Of a stretch of DNA of 32,824 nucleotides, positions 10,650 through 16,225 are shown in pieces. Position numbers and translations under genes: made by a program. The stretch covers positions 1 to 32,824 of the forward strand of contig JAKMEE010000040.1 in assembly GCA_022426155.1 (NCBI GenBank), read 5' to 3'. This DNA is from Candidatus Poseidonia sp. (lineage in GTDB: Archaea > Thermoplasmatota > Poseidoniia > Poseidoniales > Poseidoniaceae). Position 1 is the first letter of the stretch. Every line of letters starts with the position of its first letter. The notes beneath the pieces were generated by a model that was not told the origin of the DNA, searched no databases, and saw only the letters and a program-made list of their open reading frames with translations.

Positions 10650-10789
10650 TGTTGGCATATTTTGATGGTAGTTTTCACCTCATAATATGAACTTCAGAAC
10701 CCCGAAATCCTCGTGGACAAATCATAACCTTCAAAGGCCACTCAACGGTGGGAAGATTACTCACAGAGTGTGAGCGCGAGGTCGTCCAG
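10650..10789 (+). promoter_or_regulatory. upstream region of the redox gene pair with a TATA-like box
   Basis: This 140-base gap holds CATAATATGA at 10681-10690, a plausible TATA box with start of transcription about 25 bases downstream. GAGGTCGTCC at 10779-10788 is the ribosome binding site that selects ATG 10790 over the earlier in-frame GTG at 10748. No clear terminator for the thermosome gene was seen. Confidence 0.4.
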
Positions 10790-12757
10790 ATGGCAATTGT
10801 TGCAAAAGTATGGATTGACGAAGATTGCATCACCTGTGATGCGTGTCAGGATATTTGTCCTGAAGTCTTCGAAGTTACCGATGATTCTTCAATGATTTTG
10901 GCAGCCGTTCGCACTGACGGAACCTTTGATCGAAATGCGGGTGGTTCTCCGTTGGTTGGCAGCCTGGGCACCGATCTTGGAGATGTTATCATCGAAGCAG
11001 CCGAAGCTTGCCCCGTTGAAGTCATCAAGTACGAACTGGTCACCGAAGGCGGTGATGCACCTGCCGTCGAAGCTGAAGCACCTGCCGTTGAAGCACCAGT
11101 TGCAGCCGTGGCTGCGGTCGCACCTGCCGCAGGAGCATCTGAAGCCCTGAATGCAATCTTTTCTGGTGACAGAAGTCTGAACATCCTCTTTGGCTCCCAA
11201 ACTGGTAACGCCGCAGGTCTTGCAGAAAAGACCGCTAAGATGGCAGCAAATTTTGGTTTAGAACCCAACATCATTGACATGGATGGATTCGACCCTTCTT
11301 CTCTTGCATCAATGAAGCGAGTGATGATCATCACATCCACTTGGGGCGAAGGTGAGATGCCCGACAATGCCGAAGATGCTTGGAACGCCATCAATGCCAA
11401 AGGGCCCGCATTGGCCAACACTCAATTCTCTGTTTGTGCCATTGGCGACACCTCCTATGATGAATACTGCAAAGCAGGTCATGACTGGAACGACAAGCTC
11501 TCCTCACTTGGGGCACAACAAATTCACCCCATCCAAGAGTGTGATGTTGACTTTGAACCGGCATGGAAGGTTTGGGTGGCTGAAGCGCTACCAAAACTTG
11601 CGTGTGTAGATTCATCCGGTGGCTTCCTCGAAGAATTACTCGAGGAAATGGTTGCTTACGGTGCTGGCGATGATGACGGGGCTGTTGAAGGCGACTTCAC
11701 TCCCGGCGTGATTGAACGAGCAGAACTGAACATCACCGTTGAAATCTTCCGCTATTGCCCCGAAGCCGCAGAATCTGGCTGGGATACACTCGCTTGTACC
11801 GTTCCAGGGCACGCCACAGTTCAGGACCTTCTTCTCAACATGCAACAAAACGTTGACGGCAGTCTTGCTTTCCGTCGTGGCTCTGGTGCTGGAACACCGA
11901 CTACGGGTGTTCGTGTCAACGGCCGTGTGGCGCTCTCAGATGCGACCATGGTGAGTGATTTGACCACAGATGGGGGACATGTCAAGATTGAACCTCTTCC
12001 CGGCCATCCCGTAGTACGTGATCTCATTGTGGATACTTCTCGATATGAAAACCACCGAAGCCGTGCTGAACCATGGATGCGAACTGATCCACGTGAAGGA
12101 GCCCGTCTACCGTCAGGAGCGGCCATGGGGGCCATGGACCCTGCTTTGGCTACAGGCCTCCATCAAGCAGGAGATGTTCTTTCCTTCCAACTCATACAAG
12201 CTATGTCCGATACCATTGCGCATGACCCTCATTACGAGGGCCCCGGTGTTCACTTCCAACAATGGCTCCGCGCTATGGACCCAAGAACCAGCGAAGTTCA
12301 ACGTCGAACCCTTCTCAAATCTCTCCAAGAAAAGGACGGAGTATGGTCTGAAGCCGACCATGCCAGTCTTATGCGCTACGGTGAAGACGGTCGGTTGGCT
12401 GCTAAAGGGCTGAACGACGCTCGAGGTGCTTTGTTGAATCAATCTCGTTATGCTGGTAAATCTGGGCGCTTGGTCAAGTGGTACGGTCGAAGTGTCAAAT
12501 GGTCTGGTAAGGTCAACGAAACCACCCTTTACCGTCAGGTTCTCGGACCACTCGGATTGGTTGGAAACATCTTCAGCGGTGTATCCGCACGAATGGCTTT
12601 GGCCTTCACTCGTAACGGTGCACCTCCCATTCGCAGTCTACAAGCCCTTTTGCTTCCTCCAGCAGGAGTTGGTCGCATTCCAAACATGATCAATAGCAAA
12701 GTGGAACATTACCACGAGGTCGTCAGCCTCTTCAATGAAATTGACCAGCGGTTCTGA
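10790..12757 (+). CDS. ferredoxin-flavodoxin-SdhB-like fusion protein with a cysteine-free SdhB part
   Basis: A 655-residue fusion. Residues 1-85 are a single-cluster ferredoxin: C13-x2-C16-x2-C19-x3-C23-P and later C74-P, the Thermotoga-type pattern. An Ala/Pro/Val linker (about 88-117) follows. Residues 128-270 are a CysJ-like flavodoxin (SQTGNAAG at 136-143, STWGEGEMP at 183-191, AIGDTSY at 217-223), predicted to bind FMN. Residues 314-550 align by eye with SdhB/TfrB (DGSLAFRRG, VRVNGRVAL, KIEPLPGHPVVRDLIVD, HDPHYEGPG, DGVW). Yet the [2Fe-2S] ligands fall at S365, P370, G373 and D384, and the later cluster motifs are also empty. About 100 further residues follow, with no membrane helix. 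No NAD(P)H domain is present. It is probably a cytoplasmic electron carrier or scaffold whose SdhB fold no longer holds clusters. The next gene is coupled to it by TGAGGTGAAATC. Confidence 0.85.
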   Translation: MAIVAKVWIDEDCITCDACQDICPEVFEVTDDSSMILAAVRTDGTFDRNAGGSPLVGSLGTDLGDVIIEAAEACPVEVIKYELVTEGGDAPAVEAEAPAVEAPVAAVAAVAPAAGASEALNAIFSGDRSLNILFGSQTGNAAGLAEKTAKMAANFGLEPNIIDMDGFDPSSLASMKRVMIITSTWGEGEMPDNAEDAWNAINAKGPALANTQFSVCAIGDTSYDEYCKAGHDWNDKLSSLGAQQIHPIQECDVDFEPAWKVWVAEALPKLACVDSSGGFLEELLEEMVAYGAGDDDGAVEGDFTPGVIERAELNITVEIFRYCPEAAESGWDTLACTVPGHATVQDLLLNMQQNVDGSLAFRRGSGAGTPTTGVRVNGRVALSDATMVSDLTTDGGHVKIEPLPGHPVVRDLIVDTSRYENHRSRAEPWMRTDPREGARLPSGAAMGAMDPALATGLHQAGDVLSFQLIQAMSDTIAHDPHYEGPGVHFQQWLRAMDPRTSEVQRRTLLKSLQEKDGVWSEADHASLMRYGEDGRLAAKGLNDARGALLNQSRYAGKSGRLVKWYGRSVKWSGKVNETTLYRQVLGPLGLVGNIFSGVSARMALAFTRNGAPPIRSLQALLLPPAGVGRIPNMINSKVEHYHEVVSLFNEIDQRF

Positions 12758-12766
12758 GGTGAAATC

Positions 12767-13624
12767 ATGGCAAAGATTGCATATTATCCAGGAAACGTGG
12801 CACGGGCTGGTGCCTCCGAGGTCGAGGACACCATCCAACCCCTCTGTCAGGCTCTCAACATAGAACTCGTAGAACTCCCCCGTGCTAGCAGTGACGGTGG
12901 GAATGTCATCAAGCAAGCCACTCCAAAGTTGCAAGATGCTTTGGTCGCTCGTAATCTTGCTCTTGCCGAATCCAAAGGCCTTGACATTTTGACAGCATGC
13001 GCAAGCAGTCATGCGATTATGTGCAACACTGCGGAAGACATGGTCCGTGACCCAGTTTATGCAAGTACAATCAACAATCTCGTGGTTCGAACCTCTTCCA
13101 TTGAATACATGGGTGAATCAAAATCATGGCATCTTCTTCATTATCTGGTTGAAGAAATTGGATTGGATAAGATTCGTGATGCAGTAAAGAACCCCATCAA
13201 GATGAATGTTGCAGCTTATTACGGTCCTGACATGCAGCGTCAGGGTGCTTGTGGTAACGACGACCCTTTCATGCCCAAGTACATGGAGCAATTGATTGAA
13301 GCTCTAGGGGGGACTCCTGTGGATTACGATTCGAAATGTCAGAGTGTTGGTTCAACCGCCATCCTCAGTCTTGAAGATTCAGCACTTCGAATGACTGCAG
13401 CGGTCTTGTCAGATGCGATTGATTCGGGTGCGGAATTGGTTGTAAGTGCCTGTACAGTGTCTCACGCAAATCTTGACTCCTACCAATCAAAGGCAGGTCG
13501 TGTGGCTGGTAAGTACACCACCGTTCCAGTCTGTCACCTCACTGAACTCGTTGCTTTCGCCCTTGGTTTCTATCCAACACGATTTGCTCAATTGCGAACC
13601 CGTGTACGCTTGATTGGTTCCTGA
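12767..13624 (+). CDS. HdrB/SdhE-like (CCG-domain) protein lacking most Fe-S cysteines
   Basis: The 285 residues follow the HdrB/SdhE plan of two repeats, each normally with C, CC and CxxC ligands for a noncubane [4Fe-4S] cluster. Landmarks of the fold are clear: IAYYPGN at the start, IELVELP, NLALAESKGLDILTAC, MNVAAYYGP, ALGGTPVDY, SGAELVVSACTVSHANLDS. At the expected ligand positions the residues are N10, S41, S42, C78, S81, P154, C191, Q192, C229 and S232, so only three of ten remain. Cluster binding of the usual kind is therefore unlikely. It directly follows the SdhB-like fusion with a shared stop and ribosome binding site, as sdhB-sdhE or tfrB partners do, so the two products probably form a complex. 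The substrate is unknown. Confidence 0.82.
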   Translation: MAKIAYYPGNVARAGASEVEDTIQPLCQALNIELVELPRASSDGGNVIKQATPKLQDALVARNLALAESKGLDILTACASSHAIMCNTAEDMVRDPVYASTINNLVVRTSSIEYMGESKSWHLLHYLVEEIGLDKIRDAVKNPIKMNVAAYYGPDMQRQGACGNDDPFMPKYMEQLIEALGGTPVDYDSKCQSVGSTAILSLEDSALRMTAAVLSDAIDSGAELVVSACTVSHANLDSYQSKAGRVAGKYTTVPVCHLTELVAFALGFYPTRFAQLRTRVRLIGS

Positions 13625-16225
13625 TCACGTTTGTCGTAATCGCTCGTGAACAATTTTTGCGAGTTCTTCAGAACACTCAGCCGTTTGTTTGATCTTCGTC
13701 TCTGAAGCGCTCATGAGCGCTCCGAATGATGGAGAAAAAGCATTCATGATATCTCGTTCTTCTTCTGAAAGATCCTTTATTGCACCCAGAGCAAATGCAA
13801 AGCAGCGGCCGAGGTGTTCCTTCATGTCATCCAACCACGGATGGTTCAATTGACTGTTCTCTTGGATGTTCTGAACTTCGATTGCAGCAGAACGCAATGC
13901 CTGATGCAAGGCTTCATCTTGCTTTTGAGTTGCACTTAACTCCTGTTGAAACCTCTCCAATAGATCATGCTCTCTACGCGCTGCTACAGCAATGAAATGA
14001 GCCGATTCTTCAGCATTTTTTGTCATCATGACGGGAATGCCAAGGTCCAGGCTTACGTGGGCGAGTGCTCCCAAGACAGCATTGGGGTGCAAGGCAAGTT
14101 CGCGTTCATTTCCAGTCTCAATGAGAAGTAAAGGACGGGTAGCACTTGCTTTGAGTGCACGGGCTTGTCGCAACAATCTTCCATTCTTGATTGAAGCAAG
14201 TAAATCCCTTGCAGTCTTCCGCTCTATAAGAATTCTATCAGAGAGGCGAAGGTCCCCATAGGGCAGCCGAGTAAGTTGTGTTTTGAACCCCAATCCTTTG
14301 AGATAAGCAGGAAGAGTTGAGTTTGCCTCTCGATGGTCGATGAGGATGAGGTCTTGATTTCCTTTCAAAGCATTGAGTTCTTCAATCTCCTGTAAACTTG
14401 CGTTTAGGACAACATCAATCGCATCTTGTGTCTGTGATATTAACGCTTCACTTTGTTCAGTGGAACCAGGCATGAAGGAATCCAATGCAGTCTGATGCTT
14501 TGGTCTCATCTCTGCAGGTGTCAACCGTGGGGCAAGGCGAGGTTGGGCTTTGGACAAACCCTCTGGAGTTTCTTTGGATATCTTTTCTTCTTGGATTTGC
14601 AATTTTGCATCATCTAAGGCCGAATCCAAAAACTCCTGCGCACTTTGCAACCCTTCTTCGCTTTGAACAGAAAAGGCCTCAAGAGCATCGTCACGGTCCT
14701 TAACATGGTACACCTTTCTCTGAATTGTATTCCCTTCAAGAATACGGTACATGTTCCGCTCTTGATGCTGTGATGCAGTATGGACGTACATGTCGCGAGT
14801 GTCCTTTGTGATCAGCACATGTACGGCACCTGCTCGTTGCCGAGCCGTCCTTCCTCGTCGTTGTATGGCACGAATGGCACTGGGGACAGGTTCGTAGAGA
14901 ATAACCAAATCTGCTGCCGGAACATCCAATCCTTCTTCTCCCACAGAGGTGGCCACCAGGACGTTGATTTCACCCTCTCTGAATCGTTGCAATTGGGCTA
15001 TTTGCTGCTTTTGAGTCATTCCTTTTTGCTTTCCTCGGGTCGATTGGCCAATGAATTGTGCAGCCCGAATGAGTGGTTCACCGACGAATTCATTGAGGAG
15101 ATGGGCGACTGTGTCACGGAATTCAGTGAATACCAGGACTTTACCTTCCGGTTTTTGTGTCAGTTCATTGATCAATAATTCCTTCACAATGGCTGATTTT
15201 GGATGTAATTCATCAACATCGCTCAACGCCTTTCGGAGGTCGTGCGTCACTTGTAAGGAGAGAAACCGATTCTTACTTTTGTCCTGGCGACCATCTTCCT
15301 CTGCCCTGTCAAGGAAACGTTGAGCAACATTTGTACCTTGGGTTCGGAAGAGATTCAGCAACATGTGGGCTCTCCGTAGATCAGCCACTCTTCGAGCGGC
15401 ATCGTACCCACGTACGTCACGTTGCGCAATGGCCCGACTGGCTCGAAGTTGTGCACGCTCTATGTCACTGGAGGCCACATGTTCTTTGGGTGCAAGAAAC
15501 CCCAGGTTCTGGAGATGTTTGACTTCTGATGTAAAGTGTGCTTCAAGTGGACGTATCAGAGTGGATAGAGTCGATGGTATGTCCAAGAAATGCAAGTTCA
15601 TTTCCATATCTACATCGAATGGCTTGACCAATGGCTCGTCACGTTTGGCAACATCAAGCTTGTAAGTACCTAGCCGAGTCATCACTTCGAGGATGTGCTT
15701 TGAATTCGAACCCGGGCTTGCAGTTGCTGCCAACACACGGGCACGATCTTGTGACTGTATGAACAAGTTTCCAACCTGAGCGTAGGCATGGTTGCCTGTG
15801 GCGTGGTGTGCTTCATCAACAATGAGTAAGCCGACATCGGCAAGGTCAATATTTCCACTCATGGCGTCATTGCGAATGACTTGGGGCGTTGCCATGACCA
15901 CGGTTGCGGAGGCCCACAAGGATGCCCGCTTCCCTGGAGCGGTTTCACCAGTATAGGCAATGATTGACTCATTTGGTATGTTCAGGCGTTCTTGGGCCAT
16001 TCGACGTTGTTGATCAACCAAGCCAGTTGTTGGAGCAATGAGAACTATTTTCTGTGCTCCCGTGCGCAGGAATTCTGCCATCACCATCCACTCAACCGCC
16101 GTTTTACCAAATCCAGTAGGCATCACCATCAGGGTCGACGCAGAGAGGGCTTTTTTCAAGGAACGTAATTGATAGGCACGAGCTTCAACCCCTTCGTTAA
16201 GGAATGGATGAACCACAGTTGCCAT
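13625..16225 (-). CDS. Hef/FANCM-like DNA helicase fused to XPF-type (ERCC4) nuclease
   Basis: An 866-residue superfamily 2 helicase-nuclease for processing stalled or branched replication structures. The N-terminal helicase has Walker A PTGFGKT (36-42), motif II VDEAHH (136-141), motif III-like ATASPGS, FTEFRDT (366-372), SVGEEGLDVP and motif VI QRRGRTAR (455-462). A charged linker (about 515-620) leads to an ERCC4 nuclease (about 626-750) with IDHREA, then GD (657-658), ERK (668-670) and D674, the active-site signature. The C-terminal hundred residues are in the position of the tandem helix-hairpin-helix domain but the hairpins are not obvious. It is the only minus-strand gene here. Its stop directly abuts that of the HdrB-like gene, and its start faces the ribosomal promoter region. 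Confidence 0.93.
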   Translation of the reverse strand: MATVVHPFLNEGVEARAYQLRSLKKALSASTLMVMPTGFGKTAVEWMVMAEFLRTGAQKIVLIAPTTGLVDQQRRMAQERLNIPNESIIAYTGETAPGKRASLWASATVVMATPQVIRNDAMSGNIDLADVGLLIVDEAHHATGNHAYAQVGNLFIQSQDRARVLAATASPGSNSKHILEVMTRLGTYKLDVAKRDEPLVKPFDVDMEMNLHFLDIPSTLSTLIRPLEAHFTSEVKHLQNLGFLAPKEHVASSDIERAQLRASRAIAQRDVRGYDAARRVADLRRAHMLLNLFRTQGTNVAQRFLDRAEEDGRQDKSKNRFLSLQVTHDLRKALSDVDELHPKSAIVKELLINELTQKPEGKVLVFTEFRDTVAHLLNEFVGEPLIRAAQFIGQSTRGKQKGMTQKQQIAQLQRFREGEINVLVATSVGEEGLDVPAADLVILYEPVPSAIRAIQRRGRTARQRAGAVHVLITKDTRDMYVHTASQHQERNMYRILEGNTIQRKVYHVKDRDDALEAFSVQSEEGLQSAQEFLDSALDDAKLQIQEEKISKETPEGLSKAQPRLAPRLTPAEMRPKHQTALDSFMPGSTEQSEALISQTQDAIDVVLNASLQEIEELNALKGNQDLILIDHREANSTLPAYLKGLGFKTQLTRLPYGDLRLSDRILIERKTARDLLASIKNGRLLRQARALKASATRPLLLIETGNERELALHPNAVLGALAHVSLDLGIPVMMTKNAEESAHFIAVAARREHDLLERFQQELSATQKQDEALHQALRSAAIEVQNIQENSQLNHPWLDDMKEHLGRCFAFALGAIKDLSEEERDIMNAFSPSFGALMSASETKIKQTAECSEELAKIVHERLRQT

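Follow-up and report, generated by a model that had tools for sequence, protein, structure and literature searches.

The described systems that come closest to the locus analysed here are the SdhB-SdhE pairs of SdhABE-type complex II and of 8-methylmenaquinol:fumarate reductase (NF042965, NF042952), which resemble it in their adjacent genes, in the folds of both proteins and in the C-terminal extension of SdhB. HdrB (TIGR03288; PDB 5odc_B) has fold and length in common with the CCG-domain protein of the locus and supplies its best solved relatives. CCG domains with altered ligands, comparable to those of our case, also occur in EtfD (PDB 9ojn), which, unlike what is proposed for the protein described below, retains its clusters and works as a membrane electron wire; the authors of that report consider that changed CCG ligands may indicate adaptation to aerobic conditions (PMC13083937). 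A cluster-poor SdhB-HdrB fold has furthermore been solved for the 3KWL/DUF5644 proteins of Campylobacterota, with no function given in the table of PMC3397514 that lists it, and HP0468 is given as DUF5644 in PMC9570263.

The window considered here is the whole stretch of 32,824 nucleotides of Candidatus Poseidonia sp. contig JAKMEE010000040.1 (GCA_022426155.1). In it, an open reading frame at 12767..13624 on the forward strand (as for all window features below unless stated otherwise) encodes an HdrB/SdhE-like subunit of 285 aa, hereafter E', assigned from profile searches, alignments and fold. It is preceded by a ferredoxin-flavodoxin-SdhB fusion, B' (10748..12757), and an SdhA paralog, A', is reported here as new. 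The accessible parts of the open-licence literature searched yielded no description of an A'B'E' unit; apparently the same locus is printed under misleading names in PMC6741140, PMC6336850 treats canonical complex II in its available text, and nothing on the B' fusion was found in the portion at hand of the archaeal-fusion paper PMC11237513.

The E' protein and its former cluster sites

E' matches the HdrB profile TIGR03288 (128 bits) and the SdhE profile NF042965 (111.5 bits) along almost all of its own length, both scores being below the curated cut-offs (500 bits for NF042965), and it matches HdrB chains of the PDB at E ~1e-28 with the single protein and at 9e-56 with the family profile. 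Two CCG domains with the full-length HdrB fold are present, the AF2 model reaching TM-scores of 0.82–0.87 against HdrB chains (normalised to the target) with pLDDT of at least 77 over most of the protein. The first-pass annotation, which had proposed an HdrB/SdhE-like protein at this position, is thus borne out by near full-length profile, PDB and fold matches. Unlike HdrB, E' has lost most of the noncubane ligands and is adjoined by neither HdrA nor HdrC, its neighbours being the thermosome, B', a Hef-like helicase and rpl3. As expected of SdhE, it adjoins an SdhB-like protein with a C-terminal extension. At the junction of the two genes (12755..12766), 9 nt lie between the B' stop and the E' start, both genes are in the same reading frame and GAGGTGA spans the stop, in agreement with the earlier view that they are intact and translationally coupled. 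The Hef/Mph1-like helicase downstream of E' (13625-16225, reverse strand) was named by eye, and several relatives show two ORFs in its place, or a match shortened to ~590 aa.

In the HdrB structure, the ten aligned cysteines are the ligands of two noncubane [4Fe-4S] clusters. Alignment of E' to 5odc_B, 8rvv_B and 9sfi_C, made with the single sequence (9sfi_C and 8rvv_B) and with the family profile, places N10 (12794..12796), S42 and D43 (12890..12895), C78 (12998..13000) and S81 (13007..13009) at the ligand positions of site 1, and P154 (13226..13228), S193 and V194 (13343..13348), C229 (13451..13453) and S232 (13460..13462) at those of site 2. Eight of the ten cysteines are therefore gone, one more than the seven counted at first pass. 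The earlier ligand list stands for N10, C78, S81, P154, C229 and S232; its pairs S41/S42 and C191/Q192 have to be replaced by S42/D43 and S193/V194, and S41 and C191/Q192 are ruled out as ligand positions by the alignment to HdrB. Because the second CC motif aligns to S193-V194, C191 is no ligand and only C78 and C229 are left. The bridging pair Cys81 and Cys234, as given in PMC13083937, corresponds to S81 and S232 of E'.

The same sites were compared in 76 Poseidoniales E' sequences, among which one contig appears twice (L033 and L086) and L016 is partial. Two ligands are left in 39 of them, three in 26, five in one and six in ten, and all ten cysteines are present in 16/16 outgroup sequences versus 0/76 Poseidoniales sequences. 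Site 1 keeps its five cysteines (four in one member) in 11 sequences. Site 2 is gone in all 76, position 232 being S in 73 and A in three. Serine, which had been noted as the conservative replacement in several of the changes, is indeed among the outcomes, but the former ligand cysteines are also replaced by N, D, P, V, T, A and G.

Residual cysteines of this kind could mark E' as an altered Fe-S or metal protein with new ligands, drawn from C27, C78, C86, C162, C191, C229 and C256 together with D43 or histidines. C78 and C229 are found in 75/76 and 76/76 sequences, C162 occurs in 62 of the 65 sequences that lost site 1 versus two of the 11 that keep it, and altered CCG sites, as in EtfD, can hold a linear [3Fe-4S] cluster or use a histidine ligand (PMC13083937). 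However, C27, C86 and C191 are present in only 39, 38 and 37 of the 76 sequences, respectively, and the known noncubane or linear clusters need more cysteines than the one conserved at each former site; we regard such a metal protein as rather unlikely. Alternatively, E' could have turned the old site-2 pocket (C229, S193, H233 and V194) to thiol/disulfide chemistry or to the binding of a ligand. Despite the loss of the cluster, S193, C229, H233 and Y239 are invariant in the 76 sequences and V194 is kept in 74; yet H233, Y239 and H257 are also present in 5/16 outgroup sequences, and much of the site-2 shell may for that reason be structural. With no pairing cysteine conserved in all E', a function of this sort appears quite improbable.

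Domain structure of B' and origin of the pair

B' is listed from a GTG (669 aa), but translation more probably begins with the ATG at 10790, because matches in close relatives begin at B' residues 13–15. It carries an intact-looking [4Fe-4S] ferredoxin domain (Fer4_13, 10814..11029) with the CxxCxxC...CP motif, and a flavodoxin domain (11183..11551; PF00258, 94.2 bits) with the loops GSQTGN and STWGEG, which we take to be FMN loops. The SdhB 2Fe-2S (Fer2_3) fold (11738..12046) and the SdhB helical domain with its C-terminal extension (12047..12754) follow, both without ligand cysteines, and alignment of the B' tails places the NETTLYRQVLGP motif at 12515..12550. The 12 SdhB cluster-cysteine columns were those conserved in four cysteine-complete references, and window B' has no cysteine in any of them. 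B' cores were obtained from 75 of the 76 loci (all but L016), and two of these were too short to align; in the remaining 73, only three of the 876 cells hold a cysteine (one each in L087, L101 and L148). The first-pass term "cysteine-free SdhB" is accurate as regards the ligands, but the core has two cysteines elsewhere, and the partner is not cofactor-free, ferredoxin and flavodoxin domains being carried by the same polypeptide. Nor were both halves converted in one step, as had been supposed: the SdhB ligands and site 2 are lost throughout, whereas site 1 is kept in 11 of the 76 E' sequences.

The N-terminus of B' varies among ferredoxin plus flavodoxin, two flavodoxins and one flavodoxin, and where the two-flavodoxin form is combined with a lost site 1, the B'E' pair has no recognisable Fe-S site at all. 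One B' (G019:C9:77317-78723) has ferredoxin and SdhB matches with no flavodoxin match between them, the reverse of the flavodoxin-only forms, and at L105:2871-5834 (G005), B' and E' share a single frame of 987–997 aa in which junction residues are missing; this may be a genuine fusion or reflect an error in the assembly. The structure prediction for the two-protein complex, proposed at first pass, was carried out in two AF2 runs with the end of window B' and E'; the fold of E' was modelled, but no B'-E' interface was obtained and the B' tail had pLDDT <50.

The closest cysteine-complete relatives seen are of the SdhABE type and belong to sister Thermoplasmatota. Four SdhB encoded in SdhA-SdhB-SdhE operons of a sister Thermoplasmatota family give 46–64 bits with the B' core, versus 16 bits for the canonical SdhB (one sequence) encoded in the same genome as B', and E' scores 232–258 bits against five SdhE of the sister family, versus 126–170 bits against ten bacterial relatives and 170 bits against one further archaeal relative. 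A common SdhABE ancestry of B' and E' is likely. Unlike SdhABE, B' is devoid of the SdhB ligands, E' has only two to six of the ten SdhE ligands, ferredoxin and flavodoxin domains are fused to the pair and the operon contains no SdhA.

In Campylobacterales, L045:3475-4659 combines SdhB-like, DUF5644 and HdrB-like_C (PF22196) regions in one chain with few cysteines and is a sequence relative of both the window pair and 3KWL. Foldseek aligned 3kwl along the whole AF2 model with poor superposition (rmsd 24.5), and the E' family profile did not retrieve 3kwl, so that the Campylobacterota family is probably an independent, parallel conversion. It differs from B'E' in its phylum, in its single chain and, for L045, in lacking ferredoxin and flavodoxin domains. 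In Marine Group III, an operon (L108:3946-8593 and L110:4004-8651) encodes a Rieske-like protein, cytochrome-b-like proteins, of which one ends in an HdrC-like Fe-S part, a cysteine-bearing CCG protein and a flavodoxin to which two [4Fe-4S] motifs are fused. With its parts named by eye, except for the CCG protein, this resembles an unusual quinol complex that feeds flavodoxin; the flavodoxin is ~51% identical to that of window B'.

A degenerate SdhA paralog

The remodelling seems to reach the third subunit, SdhA. A' (539 aa; G000:C21:25593-27209, that is L151:1094-2710) was found at E<=1e-24 in 51 of the 54 Poseidoniales genomes examined (23/24 and then 28/30 further genomes; one match is a fragment), and the three E'-bearing genomes in which it is missing (G036, G065 and G013) may be incomplete. 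In two Marine Group III and two sister-family genomes, all A' matches were weaker than 1e-23, and we take them to be canonical SdhA/NadB. A' matches the profile of the SdhA/L-aspartate oxidase family (TIGR01812, SdhA/FrdA, 235–303 bits in the two A' scanned, below the cut-off), but without the catalytic Arg or the FAD-linking His. The catalytic Arg is kept in none of 46 A' sequences (44 Leu, one Ile and one gap), the second active-site Arg and the FAD-linking His likewise in 0/46, the His of HYMGG in one and another active-site His in 27; 45 retain the first Rossmann Gly of the FAD fold. By comparison, all 16 references have both Arg and both His, and 12 have the FAD-linking His, which is absent from four NadB. 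A C-terminal motif is missing from 24/32 A' of the second Poseidoniales family versus 0/14 of the first.

A' is unlinked to B'E' in the window genome and in the A' loci read. A protein with two to four predicted transmembrane segments adjoins it in 7/8 loci (L216 has no match), and a HIT protein and an acyltransferase-like protein are also located nearby. Rate covariation did not speak for a partnership, with r=0.39 for A'-B' versus r=0.46 for A' and Hef, an unrelated neighbour. In bit scores, A' is slightly closer to the sister family (274–301 versus 264–282), and an AU test against its grouping with SdhABE-type SdhA gave p=0.059, short of rejecting that grouping; SdhABE ancestry of A' is plausible.

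Inactive paralogs often regulate their active kin. The window genome also encodes canonical SdhA and SdhB with cysteines, the latter separate from B', and SdhA-like matches were found in the relatives examined, so A', B' and E' could be regulators or assembly partners of the canonical SDH in the same genome. This is very unlikely in our view, given that B' is much nearer to the SdhABE type than to canonical SdhB and that the fused ferredoxin and flavodoxin domains would be left unexplained. The pair is not assigned to HdrB, SdhE or SdhB, and A' is likewise kept outside SdhA, because the residues that define these proteins were tested and found not to be in place.

Retention, stepwise loss and probable repurposing in Poseidoniales

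The genome-by-genome search, which covered the order Poseidoniales (Marine Group II), found E' in 255/292 genomes and in all 35 good ones (>=90% complete, <=5% contamination), and the ligand loss is order-wide, not local. All 22 loci read, from 22 genomes selected for having E', show the gene order thermosome - B' - E' - Hef-like - rpl3. In the first Poseidoniales family, B' and E' are mostly 9 nt or close to 9 nt apart, and in the second the B' stop and E' start mostly overlap or abut. The dN/dS check suggested at first pass gave 0.008–0.098 in 18/18 close pairs (dS >1 in five pairs), and B'E' is under strong purifying selection. One E' (G118:C29:1932-2777) has an in-frame TGA. Neutral decay of an old operon would explain why most cluster ligands are lost, but decay or pseudogene status is ruled out by the spread across genomes and by a dN/dS below 0.1 in every pair, and that internal stop is the only one among the matches listed; we consider decay extremely improbable. 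The earlier conclusion that the genes are repurposed and not decayed is upheld by the conserved synteny, the low dN/dS and the kept fold.

Site 1 is kept in six genera (g6, g8, g10, g11, g17 and part of g5). In the E' tree, sequences that keep site 1 make up a basal grade and those that lost it a single clade (support 100/98 even with the ligand columns removed). This tree conflicts with that of thermosome+L3+L4, AU tests of monophyly giving p=0.013 (second family), 0.005 (first family) and 2.5e-6 (genus g5). Within g5, G109, G148 and G208 are near the site-1-lost type and G016, G035, G198, G222 and G260 are of the other type, as typed by E' match strength, with loci read for G109, G016 and G198; the conflict in g5 thus does not depend on a single assembly. 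At the same locus in G109 and G198 (L086 and L106), two nearly identical species and the clearest case, the E' type differs, along with the last ~67 residues of B'. Proteins of these two genomes are 98.3% (thermosome), 98.8% (L3) and 98.7% (L4, 156 aa compared) identical and the Hef-like proteins 78%, but E' is only 48% identical, and DNA similarity is detectable until ~200 bases before the end of B'. The tail motif contains [YF]R with site-1-lost E' and small residues with site-1-keeping E'; seven rows were overlooked or misread by the automatic pattern, of which L087, L091 and L102 were taken from the alignment instead and L027, L133, L136 and L148 were not. From this breakpoint inside B' and from the tail motifs, replacement between close species seems to have affected the E' gene and the end of B' jointly.

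All 11 site-1-keeping E' are paired with ferredoxin plus flavodoxin and the small-residue tail motif. Scored by motif pattern, the ferredoxin is absent from 0/11 site-1-keeping versus 24/62 site-1-lost loci (two further site-1-lost loci being unscored; Fisher p=0.012). This gives only a hint that loss of the ferredoxin domain is tied to loss of site 1, because the test treats related sequences as independent and at least one contig (L033/L086) is counted twice. A link to a suboxic lifestyle with cytochrome bd was rejected, PF01654 being found in 0/35 genomes (15 whose E' keeps site 1 or that are congeners of such genomes, plus 20 more) versus 10/14 control genomes.

Repurposing of the pair is well supported. 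As for its present role, we see about an even chance that A'B'E' is a catalytically emptied, repurposed SdhABE complex with electrons passing through the fused flavodoxin/ferredoxin. B'E' would be the remnant of an SdhB-SdhE unit of SdhABE-type complex II, selected as a scaffold with its metal sites largely emptied, and electron carriage would have moved to the ferredoxin and flavodoxin domains at the N-terminus of SdhB', in whichever of the three combinations is present. The pair would most likely assemble with the degenerate A', itself adjoining a conserved membrane protein, and the fused flavodoxin could dock so as to exchange single electrons, in either direction, with the A' flavin, serving a new reaction close to the membrane that does not involve dicarboxylates. 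The A'B'E' assembly, the FAD in A', the electron path and the membrane location are what we infer from these comparisons. A more specific and tentative picture, possible though with the odds against it, is that of a whole pseudo-complex II whose architecture was retained while its dicarboxylate chemistry and built-in metal centres were lost step by step and fused flavodoxins took their place, with cluster-bearing and cluster-free E' exchanged between species as a cassette that includes the SdhB' tail. In such a complex, the [YF]R tail of B' may plug the vacated site 1 with its Tyr-Arg pair, and the end point could be the forms without any recognisable Fe-S site.

The locus suggests that an old respiratory machine was rebuilt for a new job. 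Pseudoenzymes tend to be lone proteins; in this archaeal order, which is abundant worldwide, a multi-subunit redox machine has seemingly been emptied for the most part and yet retained throughout. The series begins with a ten-cysteine SdhE and passes by half-emptied intermediates to iron-poor or iron-free forms, with flavodoxin taking over from ferredoxin within one polypeptide; it offers a ready model for how a redox complex sheds its iron in oxic, iron-poor surface water, with iron saving, we infer, as the possible driver.
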